Of a stretch of 64,000 bases of DNA, positions 1 to 58,860 are shown in pieces. The DNA is from Corallococcus macrosporus DSM 14697 (lineage in GTDB: Bacteria; Myxococcota; Myxococcia; Myxococcales; Myxococcaceae). Position numbers and translations under genes: made by a program. The stretch covers positions 4,566,501 to 4,630,500 of the forward strand of contig NZ_CP022203.1 of the NCBI RefSeq assembly GCF_002305895.1. Reading direction: 5' to 3'. The notes under the pieces were generated by a model. It had not been told where the DNA came from. It saw only the letters and a program-made list of their open reading frames with translations, and made no database searches. The first letter of the stretch is position 1; every line of letters begins with the position of its first letter.

Positions 1-11657
<11,657 letters not shown>

Positions 11658-14600: not shown

Positions 14601-15203
14601 CCACGTCGTTCATGGTGCTCATGGCGCTGTTCCAGGCCGTCCTGGGACGCACGTCCGGGCAGGAGGACTTCGCGGTGGGCATTCCCACGGCGGGCCGCTC
14701 GCGCCCGGAGGTGGAGGGGCTGCTGGGCTGCTTCGTGAACACGCTCGCGCTGCGCTCGCGGCTGGAAGGCGCCCCGTCGTTCCGCGAGCTGGTGGGCCGC
14801 GTGAAGCGGCATTCGCTGGAGGCGTTCGCGCACCAGGACGCGCCCTTCGAGCGCGTCATCGAAGCGCTCCAGTTGCCGCGTGACCAGAGCCGCACGCCCG
14901 TGTTCCAGGTCGTGCTCAACGTCATCAACACGCCCAGCGTGGACGTCGCGTATCAGGGGCTGAAGCTGAGCAGCCTCGGCCTCTACGCGGACACCTCCAA
15001 GTTCGACCTGAGCCTGGAGGTCGTCGAGCGCAAGAACACCCTGTACTGCCGCTTCGAGTACGCCTCGGGCCTCTTCGATGGCGCCACCCTGGAGCGGCTC
15101 GCGAGCCATTTGACGGAGCTCGCCCAGGCGGTCGTCGCCACGCCGGACCTGTCGCTTCAGCGCGTGGCGATCCTCTCGGACGGGGAACGCCAACAGGTGC
15201 TGG

Positions 15204-16517
15204 AGGGCTTCCAGGGGCGGCCGATGGCGCCCGCTGGCGAGGCGACGATTCACGCGTTGATGGAAGCGCAGGCCGCGCGCACGCCGGACGCGGTGGCGGT
15301 GGTGTTCGAGTCGGAGCGGCTGACGTACCGGGAGCTGGACGCGCGCGCCAACCAGGTGGCGCACCACCTGAGGGGCCTGGGGGTGAAGCCAGAGTCGCTG
15401 GTGGGCGTGTGCCTGGAGCGCTCGGTGGACATGGTGGTGTCGCTGCTGGGCGTGCTGAAGGCCGGGGCGGCGTACGTGCCGGTGGACCCGGCGTACCCGA
15501 AGGAGCGCCTGGGGTGGATGCTGGAGGACACGGGCGCTTCGGTGCTGCTGACGCACGAGAAGTGGAAGTCGGTGCTGCCGAAGAGCGCGGCCCGGGTGGT
15601 GTGCCTGGACAGCGCGGCGGGCGAAGTCGCGCGACAGCCGGTGACGAAGCCGGACGTGCAGGTGGGCCCGGAGTCACTGGCGTACGTCATCTTCACCTCG
15701 GGCAGCACGGGGCGGCCCAAGGGGGCGATGAATGCGCACGGGGGCGTCGTCAACCGGCTGAAGTGGATGCAGGAGGAGTACGGGCTGGGCAGCGCGGACG
15801 TGGTGCTGCAGAAGACGCCCTTCAGCTTCGACGTGTCGGTGTGGGAGTTTTTCTGGCCGCTGCTGGCCGGGGCGAAGCTGGTGGTGGCGAGGCCCGGTGG
15901 GCACCAGGAGCCGGCGTACCTGGTGAAGCTGATGAAGGCGGAGGGCGTGACGACGGTGCACTTCGTGCCGTCCATGCTGCGCGCCTTCGTGGAGGAGCCG
16001 GGGCTGGAGGAGTTGGCCAGCCTGCGGCGGGTGGTGTGCAGCGGTGAGGCGCTGAGCGCGGAGCTGGTGAAGAAGGCGTACGCGCGGCTGCCCGCACCGG
16101 TGCGGGTGCACAACCTCTACGGCCCGACGGAAGCAGCGGTGGACGTGACGTACTGGCCGTGCCCGCGTGGGGAGGACTTCCACCGGGTGCCCATTGGCCG
16201 GCCGGTGGCGAACACGGCGCTGTACGTGCTGGACGCGCACGGGCAGCCGACGCCCGTGGGCATTCCTGGCGAGCTGCACATCGGCGGCGTGCAGGTGGGG
16301 CGCGGATACTGGCAGCGGCCCCAGTTGACGGCGGAGCGCTTCATCCCGGACGCCTTCAGCGGCATCCCCGGCGCCCGCCTCTACCGCACCGGCGATGTGG
16401 CGCGGTGGCTGCCGGACGGCACCCTGGAGTACCTGGGCCGGGCCGACTTCCAGGTGAAGCTGCGTGGCTTCCGCATCGAGCTTGGAGAAATCGAAGCCGC
16501 GCTGCGCGCCCACCCGG
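15204..16517 (+). repeat. Direct repeat copy 2: predicted Ser A domain
   Basis: Partner of the copy at 1957-3270. The repeat covers the A-domain core from just before FQGRP to just after the A8 motif. The C domain upstream and the T domain downstream are not shared at this level. This argues for recent duplication or gene conversion limited to the A domain. Confidence 0.9.
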
Positions 16518-18419
16518 GAGTCCGCGACGCCGTCGCCATGGTCCGCGAGGAGACGCGCGGGGATGCGCGCCTCGTGGCCTACGTCACGGGTGACTCGGCA
16601 CCCTTGGAGGCGGAGGCGCTGCGAGCGCACCTGCTGAAGCAGCTCCCGCAGCACATGGTGCCGTCGACCTTCGTTCACCTGGGCGTCCTGCCGCTGACGC
16701 CCAGCGGGAAGGTCGACCGCAAGGCCCTGCCCGCCCCCGATGCTCCCGTCCTCCAGCAAGGCACCTATGTGGCGCCGCGCACGCCGACGGAGGAGGCCCT
16801 GGCCGAGCTGTTCGCCCAGGTGCTCGGTGTCCGCCGCATCGGCGTCCACGACGGCTTCTTCGAGTTGGGCGGTCACTCCCTGCTGGCCACCCAGGTCGTG
16901 GTCCGCGTCCGCACGCGCTTCGGCATCGAGCTGCCGCTCCGCGCCTTCTTCGAGTCCCCGACAGTCGCTGGCCTCGCGGCATACCTGGACGCGCGGAAGA
17001 ACGCGCCCGCGCAGTCCGGCGCCGCGGTGCCGGCCTTGACGCACGCGGACCGACGCGCGCCGCTGCCGCTCTCCTTCTCCCAGCAGCGGCTGTGGGTCAT
17101 CAGCCAGTGGGGCGACTCGGAGAGCAGCGCCTACAACCACCCGCTGGTGCTCCAGCTCACGGGCGTCCTGAACCTGCCCGCGCTCCAGCAGGGCTTCGAC
17201 ACGCTGGTCGCCCGGCACGAGGTGCTGCGGACGACGTTCCGCATGGAGGGTGACAGCCCGGTCCAGGTCATCCACCCGCCCGCTCCGGTCCCCATCCAGG
17301 TCCTGGACCTGACGGGGGCGGCCAACGCCCGCATCCGTGAAGAGGAGACGCTGCGCCGGGTCCAGGAAGAGGTCCGGCGCCCGTTCGACCTGTCGCAGGG
17401 CCCGGTGGTCCGCGGCCTCCTGATGAAGCAGTCCGCGAACGAGCACGTGCTGGTGCTCAACATGCATCACATCGTCACGGACGGCTGGTCCAACGGCGTG
17501 ATGGTCCGGGAGATGGCGGCGCTCTACGCGGCCTACCGGCAGGGGCAGCCGTCTCCCCTGCCCGCGCTCCCGTTCCAGTACGTGGACTTCGCGGCGTGGC
17601 AACGGAAGTACCTCCAGGGCCGGGTCCTGGAAGCCCAGCTCGACTACTGGCGCGGGATGCTCGCGGACGCGCCGGCCTACCTCGAGCTCCCGACGGACAA
17701 GCCGAGGCCGGAGCAGCCCTCCTTCCAGGGCGAGAGCACGCCCATCCAGTTGCCGGCGGAGCTGAGCGAGGCCGTGGACGCGCTCGCGCTGCGGGAGCGG
17801 GCCACGCCGTTCATGGTGCTGCTCGCGGCGTTCCAGGTGCTGCTGAACCGGTACTCCGGGCAGGACGACGTGGTGGTGGGTTCGCCCATCGCCGGACGGC
17901 GGCACGCGCAGACGGAGGGGCTCATCGGCTTCTTCGTCAACACGCTGGCGCTGCGCGCGCGCTTCGGTCAGGACCCGACGTTCCGCGAGCTGCTGGCCCA
18001 GGTGCGTGACACCACGCTGGGCGCGTACGAGCACCAGGACCTCCCCGTCGAACGGCTGGTGGAGGAGCTCCAGCCCGCTCGCGAGGAGGGCCGCACGCCG
18101 CTGTTCCAGGTGATGTTCGCCCTGCAGAACACGCCGGCGCCCGAGCTGACGCTGCCGGAGCTGACCCTCCGGGGCTTCGAGTCGAAGCACACCGTCAGCC
18201 GCTTCGAGCTGGAGCTGGTCCTCTCGCGCGTGACGGAGGGCTACCAGGGTGGGCTCGTCTACAACACCGACCTGTTCGAGCCCGCCACGGCGGAGCGGCT
18301 GGTGAAGCACCTCCAGGTCATGTTGGCGGAGGCGCTGGAATCACCGGACACCCCCGTCTCCGCGCTGTCGCTCGAAAAGGAGGAGGAGCCGCAATTATCC
18401 GATGAGGCGGACTTCCCCC

Positions 18420-19930
18420 GTGAGGCGACCTTCCACCTGCGCGTCGAGGAGCAGGCCGCGCGGACGCCCGACGCCCCCGCGGTGACGCTGGAGTCCCAGG
18501 TCCTGACGTACGCGCAGCTCAACGCGAAGGCGAACCAGCTCGCGGCGCACCTGCGCACCCTGGGCGTGAGGCCCGAGGTCCGGGTGGGGCTGTGTCTGGA
18601 GCGCACGCCGGACGCCATCGTCGCGGTGCTGGCGGTGCTCAAGGCCGGAGGGGCCTTCGTCCCCATCGACCCGGCGGCCCCGGCGCAGCGCAAGTCCTTC
18701 GTCCTGAAGGACAGCGACGCCTCCGTGCTGGTCACCCTCCATCACCTGGCGGAGGCCTGGAAGCCAGCGGTGCGTCATCTGCTGTGTCTGGACACGGACG
18801 CGCAGAAGCTGGCGTCACTCCCCACGCGGAACGTCGTGGTGGACGTCCGAGAAGAGCACCTGGCGTACGTCATCTACACGTCCGGCTCCACGGGCACGCC
18901 CAAGGGCGTCATGGTGCAGCACCGCTCGCTGCTCGCCATGCACGAGGGCACGGCGCAGGTGTTCCAGTCCGCGGGCACCACGCGCCAGCGCATCAGCCTC
19001 AACGCCCCGTTCCACTTCGACGGGGCCCTGGAGCCGCTGGCCCATCTGGCGGACGGGCACTGCCTGTGCCTGGTGCCCGAGGAGACTCGGAAGGACCCCG
19101 AGGCGATGCTGGCGTGGCTGGGGCAACAGCGCGTGGACGTGTTGGACTGCACGCCCGCGCAGCTCACGGTGCTGCTCCAGGCCGGGTTGCTGGAGCAGCG
19201 CCATGTCCCCTCGCGCATCGTCTGCGCGGGCGAGGCCATGCCCCCGGCGCTCTGGAAGCAGTTGGCCAGCACGGAGCACACGACGGCGTACAACGCCTAC
19301 GGGCCCACGGAGAGCACCGTCTGCGCCACCGCCGCCAGCGTCCGGAGCGGCACCGCGCCGGTGCCCGTCATCGGGCGGCCCATCCAGGGAACGCGCGCCT
19401 ACGTGCTGGATGCGCGGCAGCGGGTGGCTCCGGCGGGCATCGCGGGCGAGCTGTACCTCTCAGGAGAAGGCCTGGCGCGGGGCTACCTGGGACGGCCGGA
19501 CCTGACGGCGGAGCGCTTCATCCCGGACGCCTTCAGCGGCATCCCGGGCGCGCGCCTGTACCGCACGGGAGACAAGGCCCGGTGGCGGCATGACGGCACG
19601 CTGGAGTACCTGGGCCGGCTCGACTTCCAGGTGAAGCTGCGCGGCTTCCGCATCGAGCTGGGCGAAATCGAAGCGGTGCTGCGGACCCACGAGCAGGTGC
19701 GGGAGGCCGTGGTGCTGGCGCGCGAGGATGTGCCCGGCGACAAGCGGCTCGTGGCCTACGTGGTCGTCGTCGTCACCCCCGAAGCCCCGGTGACGGCGGA
19801 GCTGCTGCGTCAGCACGTCCAGGAGCGGCTGCCGGAGTACATGGTGCCGTCCGCCTTCGTGCTCATGGGCACCCTGCCCCTCACGCCCACCGGCAAGGTG
19901 GACCGGAAGGCCCTGCCCGTCCCCGACGTC
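18420..19930 (+). repeat. A-domain family repeat (also at 24830-26320 and 28000-29490)
   Basis: Three of the last four A domains are close copies. The first (here) and third (28000-29490) share long identical DNA near their 5' ends, and all three share blocks around the LDCTPAQL and YLGRLDFQVK motifs. The middle copy is more diverged. The specificity-region residues differ (HFDGALE, HFDGTVE, YFDVSMD), so the copies may have different or relaxed substrates. Confidence 0.8.
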
Positions 19931-22900
19931 TCCAACCTGGCCGCCAAGCGGGACGTCGAGCCGCCCGCGACGCCGATGGAGGCCCGGTTGGCGGAGATCT
20001 GGAAGGAGCTGCTGCGCGTCCCGGCGGTGGGCCGCCGCGACAGCTTCTTCGAGCTGGGTGGCCACTCCCTGCTGGCCACCCAGGCCGTGGCCCGCATCCG
20101 GGCCACCTTCGACGTGGACCTGAACCTGCGCACGTTCTTCGCGGCGCCCACCGTGGCCGCGCTCGCCGAGCGCCTGTCCACCGCCACCTCCGCTCCCAAG
20201 CTCCCGCCCCTGACGCGCGCCAGGCGGGACGGGCGGGTGCCGCTCTCCTTCGCCCAGCAGCGGCTCTGGTTCCTGGAGCAGCTCCAGCCGGGCAATGCCT
20301 CGTACAACATGCCGACGGCGCTGCGCCTGTCCGGGGCGCTCGACGTGGCCGCCCTCCAGCGCGCGGTGGACGAAATGGTCCGCCGGCACGAATCCCTCCG
20401 CACCACCTTCCATGCCGAGGCCGGTGAGCCCCATCAGGTCATCCACGCGCCGCCCGCCGTGCCGGTGGACGCGGTGGACCTGTCGGGCATCCAGGACCGG
20501 ACGCAGCGGGAAGCCGAGGCGCTGAAGCGCGTCACCGCCGATGCCCGGCGTCCGTTCGACCTGTCCACGGGCCCACTGCTGCGCGTCTCGCTGCTGAAGT
20601 TGGAGCCGTCCGAGCATGTGCTTCTGCTGTGCATGCACCACATCATCTCGGATGGCTGGTCCATGGGCGTGCTGGTCCGCGAGGTGACGTCGCTCTACGG
20701 CGCCTTCCATGGCGGCCAGGCCGTGACGCTGCCGGAGCTGCCCGTGCAGTACGCCGACTACGCGGTATGGCAGCGCGGCTGGCTCCAGGGCGACGCGCTG
20801 AAGCAGCAGTTCGGCTTCTGGAAGGAGCAGCTCGCCGGCGCGCCCCACGCGCTGGAGCTGCCCACCGACAAGCCGCGCCCGGCGTTCCTCGGCACCCGGG
20901 GCGCGTCCGTTCCGGTGCGGCTCTCCCTGGCGCACAGCGAGGCCGTGGAGTCGCTGGCCCAACGTGAAGGCGTGACGCCGTTCATGGTGCTCCTCGCGGC
21001 GTACCAGGTGTTGCTGAACCGGTACTCGGCGCAGGATGACGTGCTGGTTGGCTCGCCCATCGCCGGACGGCAGCATGCGCAGACGGAGCGCCTCATCGGC
21101 TTCTTCGTCAACACGCTGGTGCTGCGCGCGCGCTTCAACAAGGGGCTGACGTTCCGTCAGTTGCTGGCCCAGGTGCGCGACACCACCCTGGGCGCCTACG
21201 AGTACCAGGACCTCCCCGTGGAGCGGTTGGTGGAGGAGCTCCAGGTCGAGCGAGACCCGAGCCGCACCCCGCTGTTCCAGACGCTGTTCACCTTGCAGAA
21301 CGCGCCCATGCCCGAGCTGGTGTTGCCCGGCCTGAAGGTGCGCCCGGCCGACGGCGAGGACACCGGCGTGGCCCTGTTCGAGCTGAGCCTGGACCTGGTC
21401 CGCGGCGCGGACGGCTTCGAGGGGACGCTCAACTACAGCACGGACTTGTATGAAGCCGGCACGGCCCAGCGCCTGGCGTCGCATTACCAGCGGCTCCTGG
21501 AGAGCATCCTGGCCCGGCCGGATGAGCGCGTCGCCGTGCTGCCGATGATGGCGCCAGCGGAGCGTCAGGCCCTGCTCGACGCCTCGAACGGCGCGCGGGA
21601 GCCGCTGCCGGCGGACGCGCGCATCCACGCGCTGTTCGAGGCGCAGGTGGCTCGCACGCCAGAGGCCGTGGCCGTCGTGGCGGGCGCCTGCTCCGTGACG
21701 TACCGGGAGCTGGACGCTCGGGCCAACGCGCTGGCGCACCGGCTGCGCGCGGCGGGGGTCGGGTTGGAGCACCGCGTCGCCGTGTGCGTGGAGCGCTCGG
21801 TGGAGCTGCTGGTCGCGCTGCTGGGCGTGCTCAAGGCGGGCGGGGCGTACGTGCCGCTGGACTCGGAGTACCCGACGGAGCGCCTGCGCTTCATGCTGGA
21901 GGACAGCGGCGCTCGGGTCATCGTGGCCCGCGCCGCGCTCCGGGAGCGCCTGGGGGAAGCGGCGGGCCGAGTCTGGCTGGACGCGGAGGTGCCGGCCTCC
22001 ACCGGCGTGCCACAGGCGCCCGCCGTCGCGGTGCCTCCCGAGGCCGCGGCGTACGTGCTCTACACGTCCGGCTCGACGGGGCGCCCCAAGGGCGTGGTCG
22101 TCCAGCATCAGTCGCTGGTGAACTTCACCCGCGCGGCGTGGACGTCCTTCCCGGTGTCGCCCGGAGACCGGGTGCTCCAGTTCGCCTCCATCAGTTGGGA
22201 CACCAGCGCGGAGGAGCTCTACCCGTGCCTGACGAGCGGCGGGACGCTGGTCCTCCGGACGCCGGACATGCTCGACGTGCCCGGCGCGTTCCTGGCGAAG
22301 TGTGAAGAGGCCGGGGTGACGCAGCTCAACCTGCCCACGGCCTTCTGGCATGACGTGACGGCCAGCCTTGAGGCCGGCACCGCCCGTCTCCCCAAGGGCC
22401 TGAAGTGGGTGGTGACCGGCGGCGAGCGCGTGGCGCCCGAGCGTGTCGCCCAGTGGCGCAACAGCGTCGGGGCCGCGGTGCCCCTGCTGAACACCTACGG
22501 GCTCACCGAGGTGACGGCGGTGGCCACGTCCGTGGACCTGTCCTCCGCGGGCACGTCCCAGGTCTCGGGGACCGAGCGCGAGGTGCCCATCGGCCGGGCG
22601 TTGCAGAACGTGCGCCTGTACGTGCTGGACCGTGAGCTGGAGCCCGTCCCACAGGGCGTGCCCGGCGAGCTGTTCATCGGCGGCGGCGGCGTGGCCCGAG
22701 GCTACCTGGGCCGGCCGGAGCTGACGGCGGAGCGCTTCGTGCCGTCCCCCTTCGTCGAAGGCGAGCGGCTGTACCGGACGGGCGATCTGACCCGTTGGCG
22801 TCGGGATGGGAACCTGGAGTACCTGGGCCGCGCCGACACGCAGGTGAAGGTCCGCGGCGTCCGCATCGAGCCGGGAGAGATCGAGGCCGCCCTCCGCGCG

Positions 22901-25900
22901 CACGCCACGGTCCACGACGCCGTGGTGCAGGTCCGCGAAGACGCCGCGGGCGACAAGCGGCTGGTGGCCTACGTCGTCCCCCCGTCAGAGCCCGACGCGG
23001 CCCCCGTGGAGGCCGCCGCCCTCCGGGAGCACCTGCGCCAGAGCCTCCCCGAGTACATGGTGCCAGCGGCCTTCGTGTCCCTCACCGCCCTGCCCCTGAC
23101 GCCCAGCGGCAAGGTGGACCGGAGGGCCCTCCCGGCCCCGGAGGCCTCGCAACTGGCCCTCACCCGGGACACCGAGCCGCCCGCCACGCCCATGGAGGTC
23201 CGGCTGGCGGAGGTCTGGAAGGAGCTGCTGCGAGTCCCAACCGTGGGCCGGCGCGACAACTTCTTCGAGCTGGGCGGCCACTCCCTGCTGGCCACGCGCG
23301 TGGTGGCGCGCATCCGCGCCGACTTCGACGTGGAGCTGAGCCTGCGCGCCTTCTTCGAGGCCCCCACCGTGGCGGGCCTCGCCGAGCGCCTGGGCTCCGC
23401 GGCGTCATCCGGCCCTCGGCTCCCTCCGCTCACGCGAGCCCAGGGCGACGGTCCGATTCCCCTGTCCTTTGCGCAGCAACGCCTGTGGTTCCTGGACCAG
23501 CTTCATCCGGGAGACGTGTCCTACAACATGCCGACGGCGCTGCGGATGACGGGGACACTGCACGCCGAGGCCCTGCAGCGCGCCGTGAACGCGATGGTGG
23601 AGCGGCACCAGTCACTCCGCACCACCTTCCAGGCCGTGGACGGCGAGCCTCGCCAGGTCGTCCATCCACCGCGACCGTTGCCGTTGAGCACGGTGGACCT
23701 CTCCGCGCTCCAGGGCCGGGCGTACCGCGAGGCGGAGGCGCTGAAGCACGCCACCCGCGACGCCCAGCAGCCGTTCGACCTGTCCACGGGGCCGCTGCTG
23801 CGCATCACCCTGCTGAAGCTCGCGCCCACCGACCATGTGTTGCTGCTGTGCATGCACCACATCATCTCGGACGGCTGGTCCATGGGCGTGCTCATCCGGG
23901 AGGTGGGCGCGCTCTACGAGGCCTTCCAACGTGGGCAGCCCGCCACCCTGCCCGAGTTGCCGGTGCAGTACACCGACTTCGCCACCTGGCAGCGTGGGTG
24001 GATGCAGGGCGAGACGCTGACGCAACACCTGGCCTGGTGGGAGTCCCAGCTCGCCGGTGCGCCGCACGCGTTGGAGCTGCCCACCGACAAGCCCCGGCCC
24101 GCGCTGCTGCATCACCACGGCGCCGGCGTGCTGGTGCACCTCCCGCTGCCACTGAGCCAGGCCCTGGAGGCCCTGGCCCACAAGGAAGGTGCCACGCCGT
24201 TCATGCTCTTGCTCGCGGCCTTCCAGGTGCTGCTGTGCCGGCACTCGGGACAGGACGACGTGCTGGTGGGCTCGCCCATCGCCGGACGGCGCCACGCGGA
24301 GACGGAGCCCCTCATTGGCTTCTTCGTCAACACGCTGGTGCTGCGCGGCCGCATCGGCCCGGAGACCACCTTCCGCCAGTTGCTGGCGCAAGTGCGCGAC
24401 ACCACGCTGGGCGCGTATGAGCACCAGGACGTGCCCTTCGAGCGACTGGTGGAGGAACTCCAGCCCTCGCGCGACTTGAGCCGCACGCCGTTGTTCCAGG
24501 CCCTCTTCGCCCTGCAGAACGCACCGGGCGAGGTCGAGCGCTCCCTCCCGGAGCTGACCCTGCGGGAGCTGGAGCCGACCCACGGCGTCAGCCGCTTCGA
24601 GCTGGAGCTGGCGGTGTCCCGCGTCCCGGAGGGCTACCTGGGCGCGCTTATCTACAGCACCGAGCTGTTCGAGCCCGCCACGGCGGAGCAACTGGTGGCG
24701 CACCTGAAGCTGGTGCTGGAGGGCGCGGTGGCGTCGCCGGACACGCCCGTCTCCACCCTGCCCCTTCACACGGAGGCGGAGCACCAGCACCTGATGCTGG
24801 ACTGGAACAACACCGCGGCCAGCGCCCCGCGTGGAGGGTTGTTCCTCACGCGCTTCGAGCAGCAGGTGGGCCGCACACCGAACGCTCCCGCCGTGGCGAT
24901 GGGAGAGCAGGTGCTGTCCTTCGCCCAGCTCAACGCGAAGGCCAACCAGCTCGCCGCGCACCTGCGCACGCTGGGCGTGGGGCCCGAGGTCCGCGTCGCG
25001 GTGTGCCTGGAGCGGACGCCGGACACCATCGTGAGCCTGCTCGCGGTGCTCAAGGCCGGCGGGGCCTTCGTCCCCATCGACCCGGCCGCGCCGGCGCCGC
25101 GCAGGTCCTTCGTCCTGCAGGACAGTGACGCCGCCGTCCTGCTCACGGTCCGGCACCTGGCGGACGCCTGGACGCCCCAGGTCCGGCACCTGCTGTGCCT
25201 GGACACCGAGGCCTCGAAGCTGGCGGCCCTGCCCCCGAACAACGTCCCGTCCAACGTGCGGGGCGAGCACCTCGCGTACGTCATCTACACGTCCGGTTCC
25301 ACGGGCACGCCCAAGGGCGTCATGGTGCAGCACCGCTCGGTGCCGTGGCTGCTCCAGGGGATGACGCAGTCGCTGGAGCTGGGAACGCCCGCTGGCCAGC
25401 GCCTCAGCCTCAATGCGCCGCTGCACTTCGACGGCACCGTCGAGCGGCTCGTGCACCTGGCGGAGGGCCACTGCCTGTGCCTGGTGCCCGAGGAGACGCG
25501 CAAGGACCCCGAGGCGATGGTGGCGTGGCTGGAGCACCAGCGCGTGGACATGCTGGACTGCACGCCCGCGCAGCTCGCGCTCCTGCTCCAGGCGGGGCTC
25601 CTGGAGCGCGGCCACGTCCCCAGCAAGATCATGAGCGCGGGCGAGGCCATTCCGCCGGCGCTGTGGAAGCGGCTGGCCAGCACGGACCGCACGACGGCGT
25701 ACAACGCCTACGGTCCCACCGAGGTCACGGTGTGCGCCACCGCCACGCGCATCCAGGGCAACGCGAGTCCCGTCCCCGTCATCGGCCGTCCCATCGCGGG
25801 AACGCGGGTGTACGTCCTGGATGCCCGCCAGCAGCTCGTCCCGCTGGGCACCGCGGGGGAGCTGTGTGTCGCGGGTGAAGGCGTGGCGCGGGGCTACATC

Positions 25901-28900
25901 GGTAGGCCGGAGCTGACGGCGGAGCGCTTCATCCCGGACGCCTTCAGCAATGTTCCGGGCGCCCGCCTCTACCGCACGGGAGACAAGGCCCGGTGGCGGC
26001 ATGACGGCACGTTGGAGTACCTGGGCCGGCTCGACTTCCAGGTGAAGCTGCGCGGCTTCCGCATCGAGCTGGGTGAAATCGAAGCGGTGCTGCGGACCCA
26101 CGAGAAGGTGCAGGAGGCCGTGGTGCTGGCGCGCGAGGACGTGCCCGGCGACAAGCGGCTCGTGGCCTACGTCGTGGGCGACGCCATCTCCGTCGAGGCG
26201 CTGCGCGAGCACGTCCAGCAGCGCCTGCCCGAGTACATGGTGCCGGCCAGCTTCGTGTCCCTGCCCACCCTGCCGCTGACGTCCACGGGCAAGGTGAACC
26301 GGAAGGCGCTGCCGCCGCCGGACGCCTCGCAGCTCACGCGGACTCGTGACACCGAGCCACCCGCGACGCCGATGGAGGCCCGGCTGGCGGACATTTGGAA
26401 GGAGCTGCTGCGCATCCCCGCCGTGGGCCGGCGCGACAACTTCTTCGAGCTGGGCGGACACTCCCTGCTGGCCACCCAGGTCGTGGCCCGCATCCGGGCC
26501 GCGTTCGACGTGGAGCTGAACCTCCGCACGTTCTTCGAGGCCCCCACCGTGGCCGCCCTCGCGGAGCGCCTGTCCTCCGCGCCGCCCGGTCCCCGGCTCC
26601 CGCCCCTGAAGCGCGTGGGACGGGACGGGACGGTGCCGCTCTCGTTCGCCCAGCAGCGGCTCTGGTTCCTGGACCAGCTCAAGCCGGGCGACGTGTCCTA
26701 CAACATGCCGTCCGCGCTCCGCCTGTCGGGGGCGCTCGATGTCGAGGCCCTGCGGCGCGCCGTGACGGCCATGGTGGAGCGGCACGAATCCCTCCGCACC
26801 ACCTTCCTGTCGGTGGCCGGCGAGCCTCGCCAGGTCATCCATCCGCCGCACCCTGCCGCGGTGGAGGTGGTGGACCTCTCGGGCATCCAGGACCGGACGC
26901 AGCGGGACGCGGAGGCGCTGAAGCGCGCCACGCGCGATGCCCAGCAGCCGTTCGACCTGTCCACGGGGCCGCTGCTGCGCGTGACGCTGCTGACGCTGGC
27001 GCCGTCCGAGCACGTCCTGTTGCTATGCCTGCACCACATCGTCTCCGACGGCTGGTCCATGAGCGTGCTGGTCCGCGAACTGACGGCGCTCTACGAGTCC
27101 TTCCTCACAGGGACGCCGGCGGCCCTGCCCGAGCTTCCGGTGCAGTACGCCGACTACGCGGTGTGGCAGCGCGGCTGGCTTCAGGGCGAGACGCTGAGAG
27201 CGCAGCTCGGCTGGTGGAAGTCCCAGCTCGCCGGTGCGCCGCACGCGCTGGAGCTGCCCACCGACAAACCCCGCCCCGAGGTGTTGCGCCACCACGGCGC
27301 GGCGGTGCCGGTGCGGCTGCCGCAGGAGCTCGCCCTGACGTTGGAGGCGCTGGCGCAGCGAGAAGGCGTCACGCCGTTCATGGCGCTGCTCGCCGCCTTC
27401 CAGTCCATCCTGGCCCGGCACTCCGGGCAAGACGACGTGCTGGTGGGCTCGCCCATCGCCGGACGGCGCCACGCGGAGACGGAGCCCCTCATCGGCTTCT
27501 TCGTCAACACGCTGGTGCTGCGCGGCCGCGTCACGCCCGCGACCACCTTCCGTCAGTTGCTGGCGCAAGTGCGCGACACCACGCTGGGTGCGTACGAGCA
27601 CCAGGACGTGCCCTTCGAGCGGCTGGTGGAGGAACTCCAGCCCTCGCGTGACTTGAGCCGCACGCCGTTGTTCCAGGTGATGTTCGCGCTGCAGAACACC
27701 CAGGCCCCCGAGCTGTCCCTGCCCCGGCTGACGGTGCGCCCCGCGGAGGCCGATGCCACCGGCGTGACGTTGTTCGAGCTGAGCCTGGACCTGGCGCGGG
27801 GCGAGGACGGCTACGAGGGCGCGCTCCTCTACAGCACCGAGCTGTTCGAGCGCGCCACGGCGGAACGGCTGGCCACGCACCTCCGGCTCCTGCTGGAGCA
27901 CGTCGTGGCTTCACCGGACGTGGCCATCGCCACCCTGCCCCTCCATACGGAGACGGAGCAGCAGTTGATGGTGGACTGGCACACCGTTGCGCCGGACCCG
28001 GGGCGTGGTGGGCTCTTCCACTCACGCTTCGAACAGCAGGCCGCGCGCACGCCCGCTGCCCCCGCTGTGACGCTGGAGTCCCAGGTCCTGACGTACGCGC
28101 AGCTCAACGCGAAGGCGAACCAGCTCGCGGCGCACCTGCGCACCCTGGGCGTGGGGCCGGAGGTCCGGGTGGCGCTGTGCCTGGAGCGCACGCCGGACGC
28201 CATCGTCGCGGTGCTGGCGGTGCTCAAGGCCGGCGGGGCCTTCGTCCCCATCGACCCGGCGGCTCCGTCGCGGCGCAAGTCCTTCGTCTTGAAGGACAGC
28301 AGCGCCTCCGTGCTGCTCTCCGTCCAGCACCTGGCGGACGCCTGGAAGCCCGAGGTCCGGCACCTGCTGTGCCTGGACACCGAGGCCTCGAAGCTCGCCG
28401 CTCTGCCAACGGGCGACGTCGCCGTGAAGGTCGGCGAAGAGCACCTGGCCTACGTCATCTACACGTCCGGCTCCACGGGCACGCCCAAGGGCGTCATGGT
28501 GCAGCACCGCTCACTGGCCGCGCTGCACGGGGCGTCGAACCAGGCGTTCCACGCCGGGGGGCCGCCGGGGCAGCGCTTCAGCCTGAACGCGCCGCTCTAC
28601 TTCGACGTCAGCATGGATCAGCTCGTCCACCTGGCGGACGGGCACTGCCTGTGCCTGCTGCCCGAGGACACGCGCAAGGACCCGGAGGCGATGCTGGCGT
28701 GGTTGGAGGCGCAGCGTGTGGAGGTGCTGGACTGCACGCCCGCGCAGCTCACGCTGTTGCTCCAGGCCGGGTTGCTGGAGCGCGCCCACGTCCCCGCTCG
28801 AATCCTGTGCGCGGGTGAAGCCATGGACCTGTCGCTCTGGAGCCGGTTGGCGAGCACGGCCCGGACGACGGTGTTCAACGCCTACGGTCCCACGGAGAGC

Positions 28901-29779
28901 ACCGTGTACGCCACGTACGCGCGGGTGCGGGACAACCCGAGCCCCGTCCCCGTCATCGGCAAGCCACTCACGGACACCCGGGCGTACGTGCTGGATGCGC
29001 GGCAGCAACTGGCGCCCCTGGGCTCCGCGGGCGAGCTCTATCTGGCCGGTGATGGCCTGGCCCGGGGCTACCTGGGCCAGCCGCACCTGACGGCGGAGCG
29101 CTTCGTCCCCAACCCCTTCGCGACCACGCCGGGCGAACGGCTCTACCGCACCGGGGACAAGGCCCGGTGGCGGCATGACGGCACGCTGGAGTACCTGGGG
29201 CGGCTCGACTTCCAGGTGAAGCTGCGCGGCTTCCGCATCGAGCTGGGCGAAGTCGAGGCCGCCTTGCGTGCGCACGACGCGGTTCAGGACGCCGTGGTGC
29301 TGGCGCGCGAGGATGTGCCCGGCGACAAGCGGCTCGTGGCCTACGTGGTGGGCGACCCGGCCACCGCGGAGACCCTGCGCCCGCATCTCCAGCAGCGCCT
29401 GCCCGAGTACATGGTGCCGTCGGCCTTCGTCTCCATGCGGGCCTTGCCGCTGACGCCCAGTGGCAAGGTGGACCGCAAGGCCCTGCCCTCGCCCACGCGC
29501 GCGGACACGCGGAGCCAGGAGGCCCACGTGGCGCCACGGGACGCGCTGGAGCTGCGGCTGGTGCGCGCCTGGGAGCAGGTCCTGGGCGTGGAGCCCATCA
29601 GCGTGCGCTCCAGCTTCTTCGAGCTGGGCGGACACTCGCTGCTGGCCGTGCGGCTCATCGCGGCCCTGCGTGAGTCCCTGGACCGGCCGCTCCCCCTGGC
29701 CGCGCTGTTCCAGGCGCCCACGGTGGAGCAGCTCGCCGCCTGGCTGCGCCGCGAGGACTCCGGCCAGGCGTCCCCGCTG

Positions 29780-30583
29780 GTGCCGTTCGACGCGGGCCGG
29801 CGTGGAGCGAACGCTCCGTTCTTCTGCGTGCACCCCGTTGGAGGCAGCGTCCTGGCCTACGCGGAGCTGGCCCGGCTGCTGGGGCCGGAGCGCCCGTTCT
29901 ACGGACTCCAGGCGCGGGGGCTCGATGGCGGCGCGCCGCCGCTGGACACGGTGGAGGCGATGGCCTCGGCCTACGTCGACGCCATCCGCGAAGTCCAGCC
30001 TTCCGGTCCCTACCTGCTGGGTGGCTGGTCCGTGGGCGGGGTCATCGCCTACGAGATGGCGCGCCAGCTCCGTGAGCGCGGGGAGGCGGTGGGCTTGCTG
30101 GCGCTCATCGACGCCTACACCCCCGACGCGCTCAAGGCCGCCGAGCCCGAGCCCGACGCCGCGCAGGTCGTCTCCGCCTTCGCGAGCGACCTGCTGGGCA
30201 TCGGACTCACCGACCTGGCCCTGCCCGACGCGGGCCTGTCACCCGAGGCCCGGCTCGAGGCGCTCCACGAAGCCGGCCAGCGCGCGGGGGCCCTGCCTCC
30301 TGGGATGGAGCTCGCGCACCTGCGGGCCCTGCTCCAGGTCTTCGAGTCCAACCTCCGCGCCGCCCGCCGCTACCAGCCGCCCGCGCTGAATCCGGGCCGG
30401 GTGCTGCGGCTGAGGGCGACGGAGGGCTCGGAGGGCATGCCCGAGGACGGCGGCTGGAAGGCGCTCGTCGGGGCCGGGCTGGAGCAGCACCCCGTGCCCG
30501 GCGACCACTACGGCGTGCTGCGCGCCCCGGGCGTCCGCGAGCTGGCGGACCGGCTCCGGAGCGCGCTGAACGTCACCACCGGG
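29780..30583 (+). other. Type I thioesterase domain (chain release)
   Basis: C-terminal alpha/beta-hydrolase of the assembly line. The nucleophile motif GWSVGG places Ser at about residue 6181 of the downstream frame, and a His in PGDHYG (about 6340) fits the catalytic triad. It follows the last T domain after a short linker. Such domains release the product as a free acid or macrocycle; the sequence does not show which. Its presence marks the end of the assembly line, and no tailoring gene follows on the + strand. Confidence 0.92.
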
Positions 30584-33335
30584 TGAGGAGGAACTCGACG
30601 CCCAGGCCCAGCTCCTTGAAGTACTTGGGCGTCCCTCCCACGAACCGCCGGTCTCCCTCCGTCCGCTTGAGGAGGTAGACCGGCACCGTGAGGCGCACGC
30701 CCACCATCTCCGCCAGGTCCACGCCCAGGCGAGCCTCGGGGACCGTCAGCGCCCATTCGTTCGGCTCGCGGAGGTAGCCCGCGGACACGCCCAGGCCTGC
30801 GCGCCACCGGACGTAGGGGCCCAGGTCCAGGAACGGAATCGCGCCGGAGAAGCCGTCCATGTCGGAGACGCAGTCGATGTAGAGCCCCAGCGTGCCCCAG
30901 CGAATGCGCGTGTCGTTGGGCACGAGCTGGTCCATGTCGCGCACGCCCAGCGCGGACAGCACGGCGCCGAAGCGCCACTCGTTGCGGCTGTAGGCGTACT
31001 CCTCGCGTCCCTGCTCCGACGCGCCGAACGGCAACTCCACGCCCAGGCCCACGCCGCGCTGGCGCATGGCGCTGAGCGTCCAGACGTGGCTCGGCTTCGA
31101 GTACGTCAGCCACTCGTCCAGGAACGCGGCGCCCGCGGGCCGGAGTGGAATCTTGAGGTTGCCCTTCTGCTGGGACACGAGGCTGTGGAAGGCGGTGCCC
31201 ACGCGCTGGCGGACGGGCTCCAGGTCCTCGCGCGTGCCGGTGGCCTCCGCGCCCTCCATGACGCCTTCGCTGTACTGGTAGCCCACGTCGCCCAACGCGG
31301 CGAGCAGCACGTCCACCTGGCCCTTGTTGAGCAGTCCCGCCTGCGCCTTGTCCGTCAGTTCATCGGAGGCCATGCGGAGCCGCTCCAACTGCGGCGTCGC
31401 CGCGCAGTCGTTGCCGACGACGCAGTTGAAGCCCGCCGAGTCGATGCCCAGCACCTTCAGCACGCGCACCTCCCGGTCCCTCAGGCGCTCCTTCTCCACG
31501 CGAGGCACCAGCAGGTCCACGGCGCGCGTCGAGGTGAGCTGGGTCGACAGGAAGCGGATGGCGTCCTGCATCCCGCGGTAGAAGTCGTGCTCGCGGAAGC
31601 GGCGGTCGAAGAAGCCCATCATCGCGAACTGGAACTCCGACGGGAGCACGGACGTGCGGCGCGGAATCTGGATGCGGCCGGACAGGTTGATGTCGTGCTC
31701 CAGCGTGTTGAGCACGGCGCTGTCGCGCGCGGCGTTCAGCACGTTGCCCAGGTACTGGAAGTAGGTTTCGTCCAGGGGGCTGCGGGAGCGCTTGGGCCGG
31801 GCGGGCGGCGGGGCCCAGCTCCAGCCGACGGCGTCCTGGTCCAGGTAGACGACGGGGAAGCGCTCGCGGTTGAGCGTCGTCTCACCCGCCGAGCCGCGCT
31901 CCACCCACCGCGAGCCGAGCCGCACCGCCAGGTCCACGGGGTTGTTGTTGAGTACGCCGCCGTCGATGAGCTTGAGGGTCTCCACGGGGCCCCACTGCGT
32001 CTCATTGAAGAAGGAGACCTCCACGGGCACGGGCGGGAACGCGAGCGGAAAGGCCCCGGAGGCCTGCGGCGTGAGCAGCAGGTTCGACAAGGAGACCTCG
32101 TGCCCGCCGTCTCCCTTGGGCTGGGCGCCCAGGGCCGGGTAGTAGGCGAGCTCCTTGGGCTTCACCCCGATATGGGGGAACGACGCGCTCACCGCGCCCT
32201 CCATGAACGGCAGCCGGGCGGTGAGCTTCCCCTCGCCCTGCGTCATCACCTGGACGACGAGCTTCTCCGTCACGCGCTTCAGCTTGAACTGCGACTCGGG
32301 GCCGCCTTCACCGAACGGGACGTCGCGCCCGCGCAGGTTCGTCACGGTGATGCCGTAGGCGAAGGTGCAGTCCTCCTTGAAGCGGGTCGCCTGGGCCTTC
32401 TCCAGAATGAGCCGCAGGGTGTCCTGCATGTGCGGCTCGCTGAAGAGGTGTGTGCCCTGGTTCGGCTCCGTGGGCTCCTTGGGGAGCAGGCGCTCCAGGT
32501 CGAGCTGGTCGATCCACACGGTCCAGAAGAGGCTCTGCTCCGGAGACCACCGGGGCTGGGAGAACGCCGTGTCACACGAGGCCAGGCCCCCGAGCAGCGC
32601 GTTCACCGCCCCCGCGGAGGCGCCCGTCCAGACACGCGGCGCCGGGTTTCCCAGGTCGGCCCGCGCGCCCTCTCGCTGCGCGACGCTCCAGAACCGGACC
32701 AGCGTGGAGATGAACCCGGCCTGATAGGCGCCCAGGCTGATGCCGCCGCTGACGACGAGCGCGGGCGCGCTGCGCTCCGTCTGCTCCGCCAGCGCGCGGG
32801 CCTTGGCGTAGTCCTCGATGTGCGGTGGCAGGTACGGCGTCCCCTCGGGGACCAGCCCGGTGTCCTTCGCGAAGGCCCCCTCCTCCGCGGGCGCGGGTTC
32901 GGGAGCCTGTGGGCTCACGTCCGTCGCGGCTTCCGTACTGGCGCTGTCCGGCGGCGAGGTGGCACCGGCTTCCGTGCTGGCGTTGTCCGGCGGCGAGGTG
33001 GCGGCACCGGCTTCCGGCAGCGAGGCGGCACCGGCTTCCGGCAGCGAGGCGGCACCGGCTTCCGGCAGCGAGGCGGCACCGGCTTCCGGCAGCGAGGTGG
33101 CACCGGTTTCCCGCAGCGAGGTGGCACCGGCTTCCGTGCTGGCGTTGTCCGGCGGCGAGGCGGCGCCGGCATCCCGCAGCGCTTCGGGAGGCGCGGCCTT
33201 GGCGGGCGCGGTGTCCGGCGTGGCCGGAGCGGCGCTCTCTGCCTCGGCGGGGACGGGAGGAACGGCTTGGGCCTGCGCGGCGCTGGTGGCTGCGAGCAGG
33301 ACCACGGCACAGGCACGAAGGAGGGCTTTGGGCAT
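30573..33335 (-). CDS. Patatin-like phospholipase with secretion signal and repeat-rich linker
   Basis: 920-residue secreted or outer-membrane lipid acyl hydrolase. Residues 1-23 form a signal peptide ending in AQA. Residues 55-145 are low-complexity Ala/Pro/Glu-rich and contain a near-perfect 8-residue tandem repeat. The patatin domain begins about 190: glycine loop SGGISLGAYQAG, nucleophile elbow GASAG (Ser about 240), and catalytic DGG in LIDGGVLNNNP (Asp about 457). The last ~180 residues alternate like beta strands and end in Trp, which would fit an outer-membrane barrel; this is inference. The gene converges on the NRPS, with the two stop codons overlapping. No operon partner is visible. 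Patatin domain call is firm; location and substrate are not. Confidence 0.88.
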   Translation of the reverse strand: MPKALLRACAVVLLAATSAAQAQAVPPVPAEAESAAPATPDTAPAKAAPPEALRDAGAASPPDNASTEAGATSLRETGATSLPEAGAASLPEAGAASLPEAGAASLPEAGAATSPPDNASTEAGATSPPDSASTEAATDVSPQAPEPAPAEEGAFAKDTGLVPEGTPYLPPHIEDYAKARALAEQTERSAPALVVSGGISLGAYQAGFISTLVRFWSVAQREGARADLGNPAPRVWTGASAGAVNALLGGLASCDTAFSQPRWSPEQSLFWTVWIDQLDLERLLPKEPTEPNQGTHLFSEPHMQDTLRLILEKAQATRFKEDCTFAYGITVTNLRGRDVPFGEGGPESQFKLKRVTEKLVVQVMTQGEGKLTARLPFMEGAVSASFPHIGVKPKELAYYPALGAQPKGDGGHEVSLSNLLLTPQASGAFPLAFPPVPVEVSFFNETQWGPVETLKLIDGGVLNNNPVDLAVRLGSRWVERGSAGETTLNRERFPVVYLDQDAVGWSWAPPPARPKRSRSPLDETYFQYLGNVLNAARDSAVLNTLEHDINLSGRIQIPRRTSVLPSEFQFAMMGFFDRRFREHDFYRGMQDAIRFLSTQLTSTRAVDLLVPRVEKERLRDREVRVLKVLGIDSAGFNCVVGNDCAATPQLERLRMASDELTDKAQAGLLNKGQVDVLLAALGDVGYQYSEGVMEGAEATGTREDLEPVRQRVGTAFHSLVSQQKGNLKIPLRPAGAAFLDEWLTYSKPSHVWTLSAMRQRGVGLGVELPFGASEQGREEYAYSRNEWRFGAVLSALGVRDMDQLVPNDTRIRWGTLGLYIDCVSDMDGFSGAIPFLDLGPYVRWRAGLGVSAGYLREPNEWALTVPEARLGVDLAEMVGVRLTVPVYLLKRTEGDRRFVGGTPKYFKELGLGVEFLLTRW
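33003..33122. repeat. 24-bp tandem repeat inside the phospholipase gene
   Basis: Five head-to-tail 24-bp units at 33003, 33027, 33051, 33075 and 33099: the first three identical, the fourth with one change at its end, the fifth more diverged. Each encodes an 8-residue unit of the type LPEAGAAS in the linker after the signal peptide. Longer imperfect copies of a related Ser/Thr/Pro unit flank it on both sides (about 32930-33180). In-frame unit length means copy-number change would only shorten or lengthen the linker. Confidence 0.9.
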
Positions 33336-56202: not shown

Positions 56203-56805
56203 CTACTCGATTGCCGCGATGCGGTACTCGCCGTCCTCGAGGACGAGCCGGACGGCGCGCTCGTCGCCCAGGGGGAACACGGCTTCGCCCGCGCCCACGC
56301 GGACGTGCGTGTTGAGCGCAAGTTTCGCGCGGCGGAGGCGCTCCTTGGCGAGGGGCTCACGCTCGAAGTCCTCGCGGAGGCGTTCGGGTGTGTAGCGCGC
56401 ACGAAGAGGACCGGCGAGCTGGCCCCAGGCGGCCTTCCATTCTCGGCCTTCTACGTTGTCAATGAAGCGGCGGAGCGCGGCGCGGGGCACATCGGCGGGC
56501 CGGGCTTCGACGACGCGCCACCCTTCGGGCGTCTGGGCGACCGTCAGCGAAGGTGCCCGCGCTTCGAGCAAGGACGCACCGACGCGGACATCCGCAGCCC
56601 TGGCGCTCCGGGCCTCCGGATCAGCGTAGCGCTCCAGGAACGCGACCTCGTCATCCGGGCCACCAGCGGTCAGCGCGTAGGCTTCCTGGACACGCCCCTC
56701 CTCGAGCGCACGGGCGTAAGCCTCCGCGACGGAGGTGGGCTCGCGCGACGTGGTCGCACAGCCTGTCAGAAAGACGCAGGCGGCCAGGGTACGACTCGTG
56801 AACAT
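56203..56805 (-). CDS. Predicted lipoprotein of unknown function
   Basis: 200 residues with a lipobox near residues 12-15 (LTGC, Cys about 15). The mature part has two similar ~70-residue stretches (around VAEAYARALEEGRVQEAYALT and ALRRFIDNVEGREWKAAWGQL), each starting with a helical NTF2-like pattern and ending in a short strand region. This suggests two related small domains. No family named with confidence. It stands alone, with the AAA-PIN pair upstream. Confidence 0.78.
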   Translation of the reverse strand: MFTSRTLAACVFLTGCATTSREPTSVAEAYARALEEGRVQEAYALTAGGPDDEVAFLERYADPEARSARAADVRVGASLLEARAPSLTVAQTPEGWRVVEARPADVPRAALRRFIDNVEGREWKAAWGQLAGPLRARYTPERLREDFEREPLAKERLRRAKLALNTHVRVGAGEAVFPLGDERAVRLVLEDGEYRIAAIE

Positions 56806-56912
56806 CCCGGGAGGATAGCCGCATGGGCGCTCCTGCCCAACGGGCCTTCATCAGACAGGACTCACCCGCCTGTCGTCGAGGGAGCCACGGCTGAAGGGCC
56901 TGGTTGAACTCC

Positions 56913-57398
56913 TCACATCGTGGGCAGTCTGTCGAACCGATGAAGTTGCTGATCGAGCGACCAGATATAGACCCGACGTCCCGGATTGAGATCACACTGC
57001 CTCATCCACTCCTTCTGAATGGTCAAGTCGCCCAGACCACTGCCCTTTCCCTTGGCATCCGAGCGCATCGCCCAGTCCGGAAACTCGACGAGCCAAGTCG
57101 CAAGTTCCTTGGCTTGGAAAAACGGCGTGGGGCGAAACGGCAGGTCTCCCTTGAGCGCCTCGGTCACGAACTTCACAAAGGCTGTAGCCGCCTTTCGTCT
57201 GGCCTGGCCCTGCATCGAACACTGGCCGATGTGGTTCCCAGTTTCTAAAATCGAGGTCATCGGAAGCAACAGAGTGTCGCCCGCCTTGATTTTGTCCTTC
57301 AACTGATTCTGAAACCCGCGGGCATTCGAACTCAACTTGGGAACCGCAAGGATTTCACAGAGGATACTGGTGTCGAGCAGCACCACGTTCTCGCTCAT
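56913..57398 (-). CDS. PIN-domain protein, second gene of the AAA-PIN pair
   Basis: 161 residues. The four acidic residues of a PIN nuclease are in place: Asp9 in LLDTSIL, Glu52 in SILETGN, Asp124 in GLGDLTI and Asp149 in WSLDQQL. PIN domains cut RNA (sometimes DNA) with bound Mg/Mn; most toxins of VapC type are ~130 residues, so this is slightly longer, with a Gln/Lys/Arg-rich insertion around 60-85. It overlaps the AAA gene by 4 bases (ATGA), so the two are translationally coupled. Base composition is clearly less GC-rich than its neighbours. No antitoxin-like gene accompanies it; the AAA partner fills the place of one. Confidence 0.8.
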   Translation of the reverse strand: MSENVVLLDTSILCEILAVPKLSSNARGFQNQLKDKIKAGDTLLLPMTSILETGNHIGQCSMQGQARRKAATAFVKFVTEALKGDLPFRPTPFFQAKELATWLVEFPDWAMRSDAKGKGSGLGDLTIQKEWMRQCDLNPGRRVYIWSLDQQLHRFDRLPTM

Positions 57399-58711
57399 GT
57401 CTCCTCACCCGAGTGCTGAAGGAATTCGAAGAACTCCTGGGTTCGTTGGAGTGCCTGTTCGGCGTCCGGGGGGGTCTTGAGGAAGCGATCGAGAATTCCT
57501 TGGGTGACGAGCCTCCCGATCGGGCCTTGTGCCACTAGATCCGGGTAACGCTCCAGATCTTGCAACCGCATCAATCGACTGTCGCCTTGCTCTGGATCTC
57601 GGTAGCAAGCCACGACATCCGGAATAGACTCCACTGGAATCGCGTCGAGGAGCGCTGGATTATGGGTGGTCAGGAGCACGCGCAACGCACGCTGCTTCGC
57701 CACCGCCTGGATGCGGTCGAGCAGGCTCTCAGCACGGCTCGGATGGACGCCGTTGTCAATCTCTTCAATGACTACCATGGCGCCCTCGGGAACCGACAAG
57801 AGCGCTGCGGCGACCGCAAGAACACGAAGTGTGCCGTCGGAGAGCAGCGCGGCATCCGTCTCACGCTCTTCTGTTCCAAACGACTCGGTCAGTTTCACCA
57901 TCACTTCCCCTCGAGGTCCATCCAGGAAGCCTATGTCGAGGATGTCCTGCTCTGGTAGCGAGCGGACGAACTCCAGGACCTGCTCTTTTCCCTCCGAAGA
58001 GGCACAGAGTTCATGAAGCACCGCAGAGACGTTTGCACCATCTCCCCGCAGGATTCGCTCCACGAGAAAACTGTACTCGCGCATCCGCCCCGGAACCGGA
58101 TCTAAGAAGAGAACAGCCTCAAGCGAGCGCCTGAGCCGCTCGGCTGCGACAGGGATTTCCTTCTGAGAACGTGCGTGCGTGCTTCCGAATCGCGCGGGCG
58201 TCGTCAACTGGGTAAAAACCGCCTGCTGGTCAATGCAAGTGACCCGTGGCTTCTTCCCGCCTCGAGCGAAGTTGTTGTAGGCAACCTGGATTTCGTTGCT
58301 GTACTCCGTCGCGGGCTTCTCAATTTGGTACAGCGAAGCCCCAGTATCGCCGCCCCACATCCACAACTTTTCATCGACGATCCGCATGCCTAGGCTATCG
58401 ACCTCCAGCTTCATCTGGAGTTGAAGATCTGGCCCCGAATCGTCGGAGATCATGCAATCGTAGCCGAAGGATACCGCTTCACCATGGGTGAGATTGAGCG
58501 GTGTGCCTCGCACGGAGAGTTCTCGATCCTTGAGGACCATCACCAAATCGCTCAACCGGCGCCCTTTGGCAATCCAAGCCAGCAGTTGAATCGCCTCGAT
58601 GAGGTTGCTCTTTCCAGACGCATTGGCTCCGATGAGCACCGTCAACTCGGCGAGCGGAAGCGTTGCGGACCTGTAGCTCTTGAAGTTCTCGAGGGTAATG
58701 CTTTGGAGCAT
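57395..58711 (-). CDS. AAA-family ATPase of the ABC/SMC-like type, first gene of the AAA-PIN pair
   Basis: 438 residues. Opens with LQSITLENFKSYRSATLPL, the start typical of RecF/SMC-like and OLD-like ATPases. Walker A GANASGKSN (28-36); signature-like LLSDGTLRVLAVAAALL; Walker B VVIEEIDNGVHPS; H-loop TTHNPALLDAIP. Inserted helical and beta parts (about 60-250) are the usual place for a target-sensing domain. No nuclease (TOPRIM) domain follows, unlike OLD or GajA. It is coupled by a 4-base overlap to the PIN gene. Codon use and GC are lower than around it, suggesting transfer. Such paired ATPase-effector operons are common in phage defence (for example PARIS, Septu); this pairing is not one I can name. 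Confidence 0.88.
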   Translation of the reverse strand: MLQSITLENFKSYRSATLPLAELTVLIGANASGKSNLIEAIQLLAWIAKGRRLSDLVMVLKDRELSVRGTPLNLTHGEAVSFGYDCMISDDSGPDLQLQMKLEVDSLGMRIVDEKLWMWGGDTGASLYQIEKPATEYSNEIQVAYNNFARGGKKPRVTCIDQQAVFTQLTTPARFGSTHARSQKEIPVAAERLRRSLEAVLFLDPVPGRMREYSFLVERILRGDGANVSAVLHELCASSEGKEQVLEFVRSLPEQDILDIGFLDGPRGEVMVKLTESFGTEERETDAALLSDGTLRVLAVAAALLSVPEGAMVVIEEIDNGVHPSRAESLLDRIQAVAKQRALRVLLTTHNPALLDAIPVESIPDVVACYRDPEQGDSRLMRLQDLERYPDLVAQGPIGRLVTQGILDRFLKTPPDAEQALQRTQEFFEFLQHSGEET

Positions 58712-58742
58712 GACGGTCTGTCCGGGGAGGTTAGGCGTGAAT

Positions 58743-58860
58743 CTACGGTACGGGCAGCATCTCCGCCATTTTGGTGCGTAGGGCGAAGCCGGGAGCGTTC
58801 GACGCCCGAGCGAGGCCGTCAGCGCGTGCCAGTGAGCCCACAGCGTCAGTGCAGATACGA
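58743..58860 (-). pseudogene. Possible gene remnant between lpxR-like gene and the AAA gene
   Basis: A short open stretch ends at a stop 31 bases before the AAA start and reads like a natural protein C-terminus (about SLARADGLARASNAPGFALR, then TKMAEMLPVP). It begins where the LpxR-like gene ends in another frame. It may be the tail of a gene lost when the AAA-PIN pair entered, or chance. Family unknown. Confidence 0.25.

Follow-up and report, generated by a model that had tools for sequence, protein, structure and literature searches.

A mobile gene pair of the candidate defence family PDC-M07, encoding an SMC-type ATPase and a predicted PIN nuclease, in Corallococcus macrosporus

Two genes on the minus strand form the cassette described here, in a 64,000-nucleotide stretch of the Corallococcus macrosporus chromosome (the window). 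The upstream gene (57395..58711, ATG start) encodes an ABC/SMC-type ATPase of 438 amino acids, hereafter A, assigned from PADLOC, AAA_21 and a predicted model. The downstream gene (56913..57398, ATG start) encodes B, a 161-amino acid protein with a predicted PIN fold resembling VapC, assigned from PADLOC and a predicted model. The end of the ATPase gene and the start of the PIN gene share four bases (57395..57398, minus strand); overlaps of 4-8 bp, usually 4 or 8, are found in most homologous loci. The GC content is 0.582 in the A gene and 0.560 in the B gene, compared with about 0.67-0.75 in the neighbouring kilobases (about 70% for the region), and the sole other clear dip in the window is to 0.64, at 47-49 kb. 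The pair is present as a single copy in the 8.97-Mb genome (one contig) and is flanked by ordinary chromosomal genes. The overlap, the low GC and the housekeeping surroundings had all been noted in the original prediction and are borne out. No sigma-70-like promoter was found upstream of the pair. Elsewhere in the window, a simple gene caller reports one open frame of about 19 kb (11489-30586, plus strand), probably a very large multi-domain gene.

The ATPase motifs of A are highly conserved, with invariant residues among 33 sequences in each of them: G28, N30, G33 and K34 in the Walker A motif (GANASGKS, residues 28-35; 58607..58630), S291-T294 in the ABC signature (LSDGT, residues 290-294; 57830..57844), E317 and D319 in the Walker B motif (VVIEEID, residues 313-319; 57755..57775), and the H-loop His350 (57662..57664), all on the minus strand. 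A matches the domains AAA_21 (6e-31), AAA_15 and SMC_N. Its predicted model (pLDDT 88.9) aligns with Rad50/SMC heads with Z up to 21 and with PtuA of Septu and retron systems with Z about 18-19 (18.9); as modelled, A falls into the same fold class as PtuA and Rad50/SMC, the Z ranges being too close to rank. No Toprim domain was matched in the 438 residues with Pfam or NCBIfam, and the initial description of A as an ABC/SMC-like ATPase without a nuclease domain stands.

In B, the complete PIN quartet is found at the four residues that had been predicted: Asp9 (57372..57374), Glu52 (57243..57245), Asp124 (57027..57029) and Asp149 (56952..56954), on the minus strand. The last three are invariant in 30 sequences, and the ETGNH motif around Glu52 is nearly so. 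Loss of the quartet among homologues was looked for; D-E-D-D is kept in 29 of the 30 relatives. The remaining one, encoded by the Anabaena cylindrica plasmid pANACY.01 (L093:9355-9837), has Tyr in place of the catalytic Asp9 with the rest intact and represents a natural active-site variant. The predicted model of B (mean pLDDT 91.1; the models of the cassette proteins were computed from alignments without seven rows from plasmid records) is closest to VapC20 (Z 12.9 over 125 residues, rmsd 2.4), a toxin that cuts the sarcin-ricin loop, and next to other VapC and FitB toxins. Foldseek alone gave a best E of about 1e-3. According to this model, B folds like VapC. B has no match in Pfam or NCBIfam. 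Matches to PIN_4 or PIN_12, with scores under the cut-off, were seen for two divergent relatives. Its profile matched no PIN protein among the sequences of solved structures, the PIN fold coming from prediction alone.

The pair had been put forward as possibly undescribed. This part of the prediction does not hold, since PADLOC-DB 2.0.0 already models exactly these two proteins as PDC-M07A and PDC-M07B. A matches PDC-M07A (PDLC04393) at 2e-186 over residues 1-434 and B matches PDC-M07B (PDLC04395) at 8e-55 over residues 3-157, that is, both over their full length. The A/B order and the adjacency on one strand are also those of PDC-M07, and no difference was found. From these profile matches, the window pair almost certainly belongs to PDC-M07, a candidate defence system. 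In PMC12988326, the PDC candidates are credited to the 2024 'guilt-by-embedding' preprint of Payne and colleagues (doi 10.1101/2024.01.29.577857). A literature search found no paper naming PDC-M07 and no phage-protection, ATPase or RNase result for any of its members; tests are possibly reported in the preprint itself. Two other PADLOC candidates, PDC-M63 and PDC-S04, were inactive when tested (PMC12409345). What is new for PDC-M07, a catalogued family of candidate anti-virus systems, is evidence on function and mechanism.

A and B form a near-obligate pair. The co-occurrence of their homologues, proposed as a check in the original prediction, is evident from both sides. Of 36 A-led loci, 35 have B as the next gene after A (34 by BLAST and one more, L110, by profile); the loci span 26-91% identity and are distributed over Myxococcota, Pseudomonadota, Cyanobacteriota, Actinomycetota, Acidobacteriota, Bacillota and others. 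Within the Myxococcota, B occurs in 15 of 195 genomes, and A is found in all 15. When the search was led by B, in 398 genomes of a different phylum, it gave 16 matches in 14 genomes (3.5%), with A immediately upstream in 15 of them, one of which (L027) was already known from the A-led set; the 16th is a decayed, truncated fragment. The protein distances of A and B correlate (r = 0.895, a value reached by none of 1000 permutations). Between related copies, dN/dS is 0.04-0.14 for A and 0.07-0.28 for B, so that both genes are under purifying selection. These values, together with the strong profile matches, exclude chance as the explanation of the pair. The conserved unit is A-B without any third gene. 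In five genomes the pair is preceded by gyrB, which was rejected as a third component: it is the single-copy housekeeping gyrB, present in 27 of 27 genomes of the genus. Decayed copies also exist. L103 (genome G139), counted among the 34 BLAST-paired loci, is a broken, frameshifted pair downstream of gyrB, and L176 (G278) is a lone truncated PIN gene.

A and B move together as one unit, also from genus to genus. It lies directly downstream of the housekeeping gyrB in G002, G020 and G022 and in two genomes of another genus, G137 and G139. In G026, the same gyrB junction is closed by 19 bp and lacks just the two genes, which makes it a clean empty site. Window A is 91% identical to the copy in another genus (G133) and about 57% identical to copies in its own genus, and the tree groups them accordingly. 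Comparison with G001 and G006 delimits a variable segment in the window at 56228..58845, comprising the pair and one small gene (56203-56805). In G001, of the same genus, 122 bp separate an LpxR-like gene from the sequence of window position 56227, and the pair and its small neighbour are absent. At the same site, G006 carries a gene for a 1096-residue kinase-domain protein matching the PD-T4-6 and Stk2 models, plus an IS3-type transposase, as read from open reading frames. Since G006 has other DNA here, the site of the window pair is a variable one with a second defence-like gene. The G006 protein, encoded downstream of the LpxR-like gene (L114:11433-14723), has a Ser/Thr kinase domain and also matches the MkoA model. 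No integrase was seen beside the window pair, and its site is free of direct repeats of more than 16 bp. Homologues of A-B also reside on small and conjugative plasmids, most copies found being chromosomal. B has no match in the phage collection. The sole match on a viral contig (L088) has neighbouring genes in common with a bacterial genome (L029). The window pair is a genuine, mobile and conserved two-gene cassette.

Location in defence islands, the other proposed check, gives a divided answer. Some homologues sit inside type I restriction or BREX operons, whereas the window pair stands alone at a variable chromosomal site. Two plasmid types, Photobacterium pAQU1 and Vibrio campbellii pIFL1_3, carry A-B within a run of overlapping genes arranged as hsdM-hsdS-A-B-hsdR. 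The pair is likewise found within type I restriction genes at L021 and L023, the HsdM and HsdR of L023 being 54% and 39% identical, respectively, to those of the plasmids. The L170 copy is part of a BREX operon, with brxC on one side and pglX on the other, and the 11-kb Lactococcus plasmid pUC06D bears a lone hsdS as well as the pair. Among the neighbours pooled across loci there are, in addition, methyltransferases of types II and III, LmuB and several PADLOC candidates. Recognisable defence genes adjoin a minority of the homologous loci in this pooled output, and the window copy has none. As a control, 14 arbitrarily chosen regions with 109 genes, mostly of the same genomes, were searched; the only models matched there were PDC-S70, mad3 and a GlgB-like one, and no restriction or BREX gene was among the matches. 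Between hsdS and the pair, L023 encodes an ATPase matching the Ppl/PDC-M49A models (6211-8844) and a protein with weak similarity to pAgo models (8826-10007); several systems may be stacked in this one restriction operon.

The combination of an ABC ATPase with a small nuclease is known from several defence systems, from which A-B is distinguished by the nuclease. Septu (PtuA-PtuB) and the retron Ec78/Eco7 effectors pair an SMC-like ABC ATPase with a small nuclease, as A-B does. However, PtuB is an HNH nuclease (PMC13096335), whereas B has a predicted PIN fold, and Pfam, NCBIfam and PADLOC gave no HNH match for it. PARIS (AriA-AriB) shares the layout of an ABC ATPase sensor and a small nuclease effector. 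The AriA model matches A at 2.5e-30, far below the PDC-M07A match, and AriB is a Toprim tRNase (PMC12409363), unlike the PIN protein B, which has no AriB or Toprim match in Pfam or PADLOC. WonAB and PD-T4-4 are two-gene systems of an ABC ATPase and a small nuclease (about 16 kDa) as well, but the partner (WonB) is of the PD-(D/E)xK type in place of the PIN fold with its D-E-D-D quartet. In OLD nucleases, the ATPase is fused to Toprim, a domain that was not matched in A. In HEC-01 and RloB-type pairs, the ATPase is related to A and the effector family differs from B. VapBC toxins share with B the PIN fold, as predicted, and the quartet. In VapBC, however, the toxin gene lies beside a small vapB, while the gene upstream of B encodes a 438-residue ATPase. 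In three of these systems the target is tRNA or translation: AriB of PARIS cuts tRNA (PMC12409363), Septu cuts tRNA-Tyr (PMC13096335), and WonAB stops translation with a nuclease that is toxic only in the presence of its ATPase (PMC12137116). In two recently validated, different defence systems, PIN domains or their catalytic residues are required (PMC13092281).

The layout of ATPase sensor and nuclease effector was the basis of the defence reading in the original prediction. The near-obligate pairing, the conserved quartet, the mobility and the location of homologues inside restriction and BREX operons agree with it, and from them we strongly infer a defence role for the cassette. In the model that we consider probable, A-B is a two-gene anti-phage cassette in which ATP-gated A controls the PIN nuclease B, which would cut an essential RNA on infection. 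The ABC ATPase would dimerise or oligomerise through ATP and hold or position the small PIN nuclease in a complex, thereby keeping the VapC-like RNase inactive. A phage signal would then change the state of A, and B would be activated or released. Its substrate would most likely be tRNA, or else an rRNA loop as for VapC20. With translation halted, the phage could not multiply, an abortive outcome. It is by analogy with Septu, PARIS and WonAB that B is suggested to be a VapC-like RNase gated by ATP, with tRNA or rRNA as its substrate. The catalogued candidate PDC-M07 thereby gains a concrete, testable mechanism.

The same cassette could instead defend by direct interference, B cutting invader DNA without aborting translation. 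DNA nucleases do exist in the PIN superfamily, making such an activity possible, and A resembles DNA-bound Rad50/SMC heads; moreover, the restriction and BREX genes among which homologues are embedded are DNA-targeting. Nevertheless, the nearest folds to B are VapC RNases and not FEN-type nucleases, and in the related Septu, PARIS and WonAB it is tRNA or translation that is hit, which renders a DNA target unlikely. Slightly less likely still is a toxin-antitoxin module that serves to maintain plasmids or islands and not to defend the cell, with B as VapC-like toxin and A as antitoxin. The fold of B and the copies on small and conjugative plasmids are what this proposal would lead one to expect. 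It fits poorly with most copies found being chromosomal and with the nature of A, a 438-residue ATPase with strongly conserved motifs rather than a small DNA-binding VapB. Furthermore, simple sequestration has been ruled out in the related WonAB, because without the ATPase its nuclease is not toxic (PMC12137116). That A-B is a housekeeping or stress-response ATPase-RNase pair with no phage role seems highly improbable. Although the window pair stands alone among ordinary genes, its kind is patchily distributed (15 of 195 Myxococcota genomes), is exchanged between genera, leaves empty sites and is embedded in defence operons.

Eleven more distant ATPases, 27-32% identical to A, have no PIN gene. 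They form one clade (100/100), sister to two PIN-partnered ones (99/96), in a tree whose midpoint root leaves the direction of partner exchange undefined. In those with an intact downstream frame, the gene that follows, with a similar overlap, encodes a protein of about 188 residues that weakly matches HEC-01B, RloB and DUF4276. A tentative extension, to which we give somewhat less than an even chance, is that PDC-M07 represents a PIN RNase placed under an SMC-type ATPase and not VapB, that on phage infection it cleaves either tRNA or the sarcin-ricin loop of 23S rRNA, and that the lineage has swapped its nuclease (PIN as against the RloB/DUF4276-like protein of the sister branch). If true, VapC-type RNases, which usually come with small antitoxins, would be linked to ATPase-gated nuclease systems, and one ATPase lineage with two nuclease partners would offer a natural experiment on how sensors dock and release effectors. 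The sister-clade ATPases end in '...TGWLERAL', and most PIN-partnered ones run 25-30 residues further; in A this C-terminal tail spans residues ~405-438. Docking of B by this tail is put forward as a hypothesis only, because L107 and L108 have short tails. The sister-clade ATPase and its partner of about 188 residues (VKVLVIPEDPT..DQYI..DRD), encoded at L069:2145-2711, L064:980-1543 and L074:2145-2711, may constitute a separate, uncatalogued pair.
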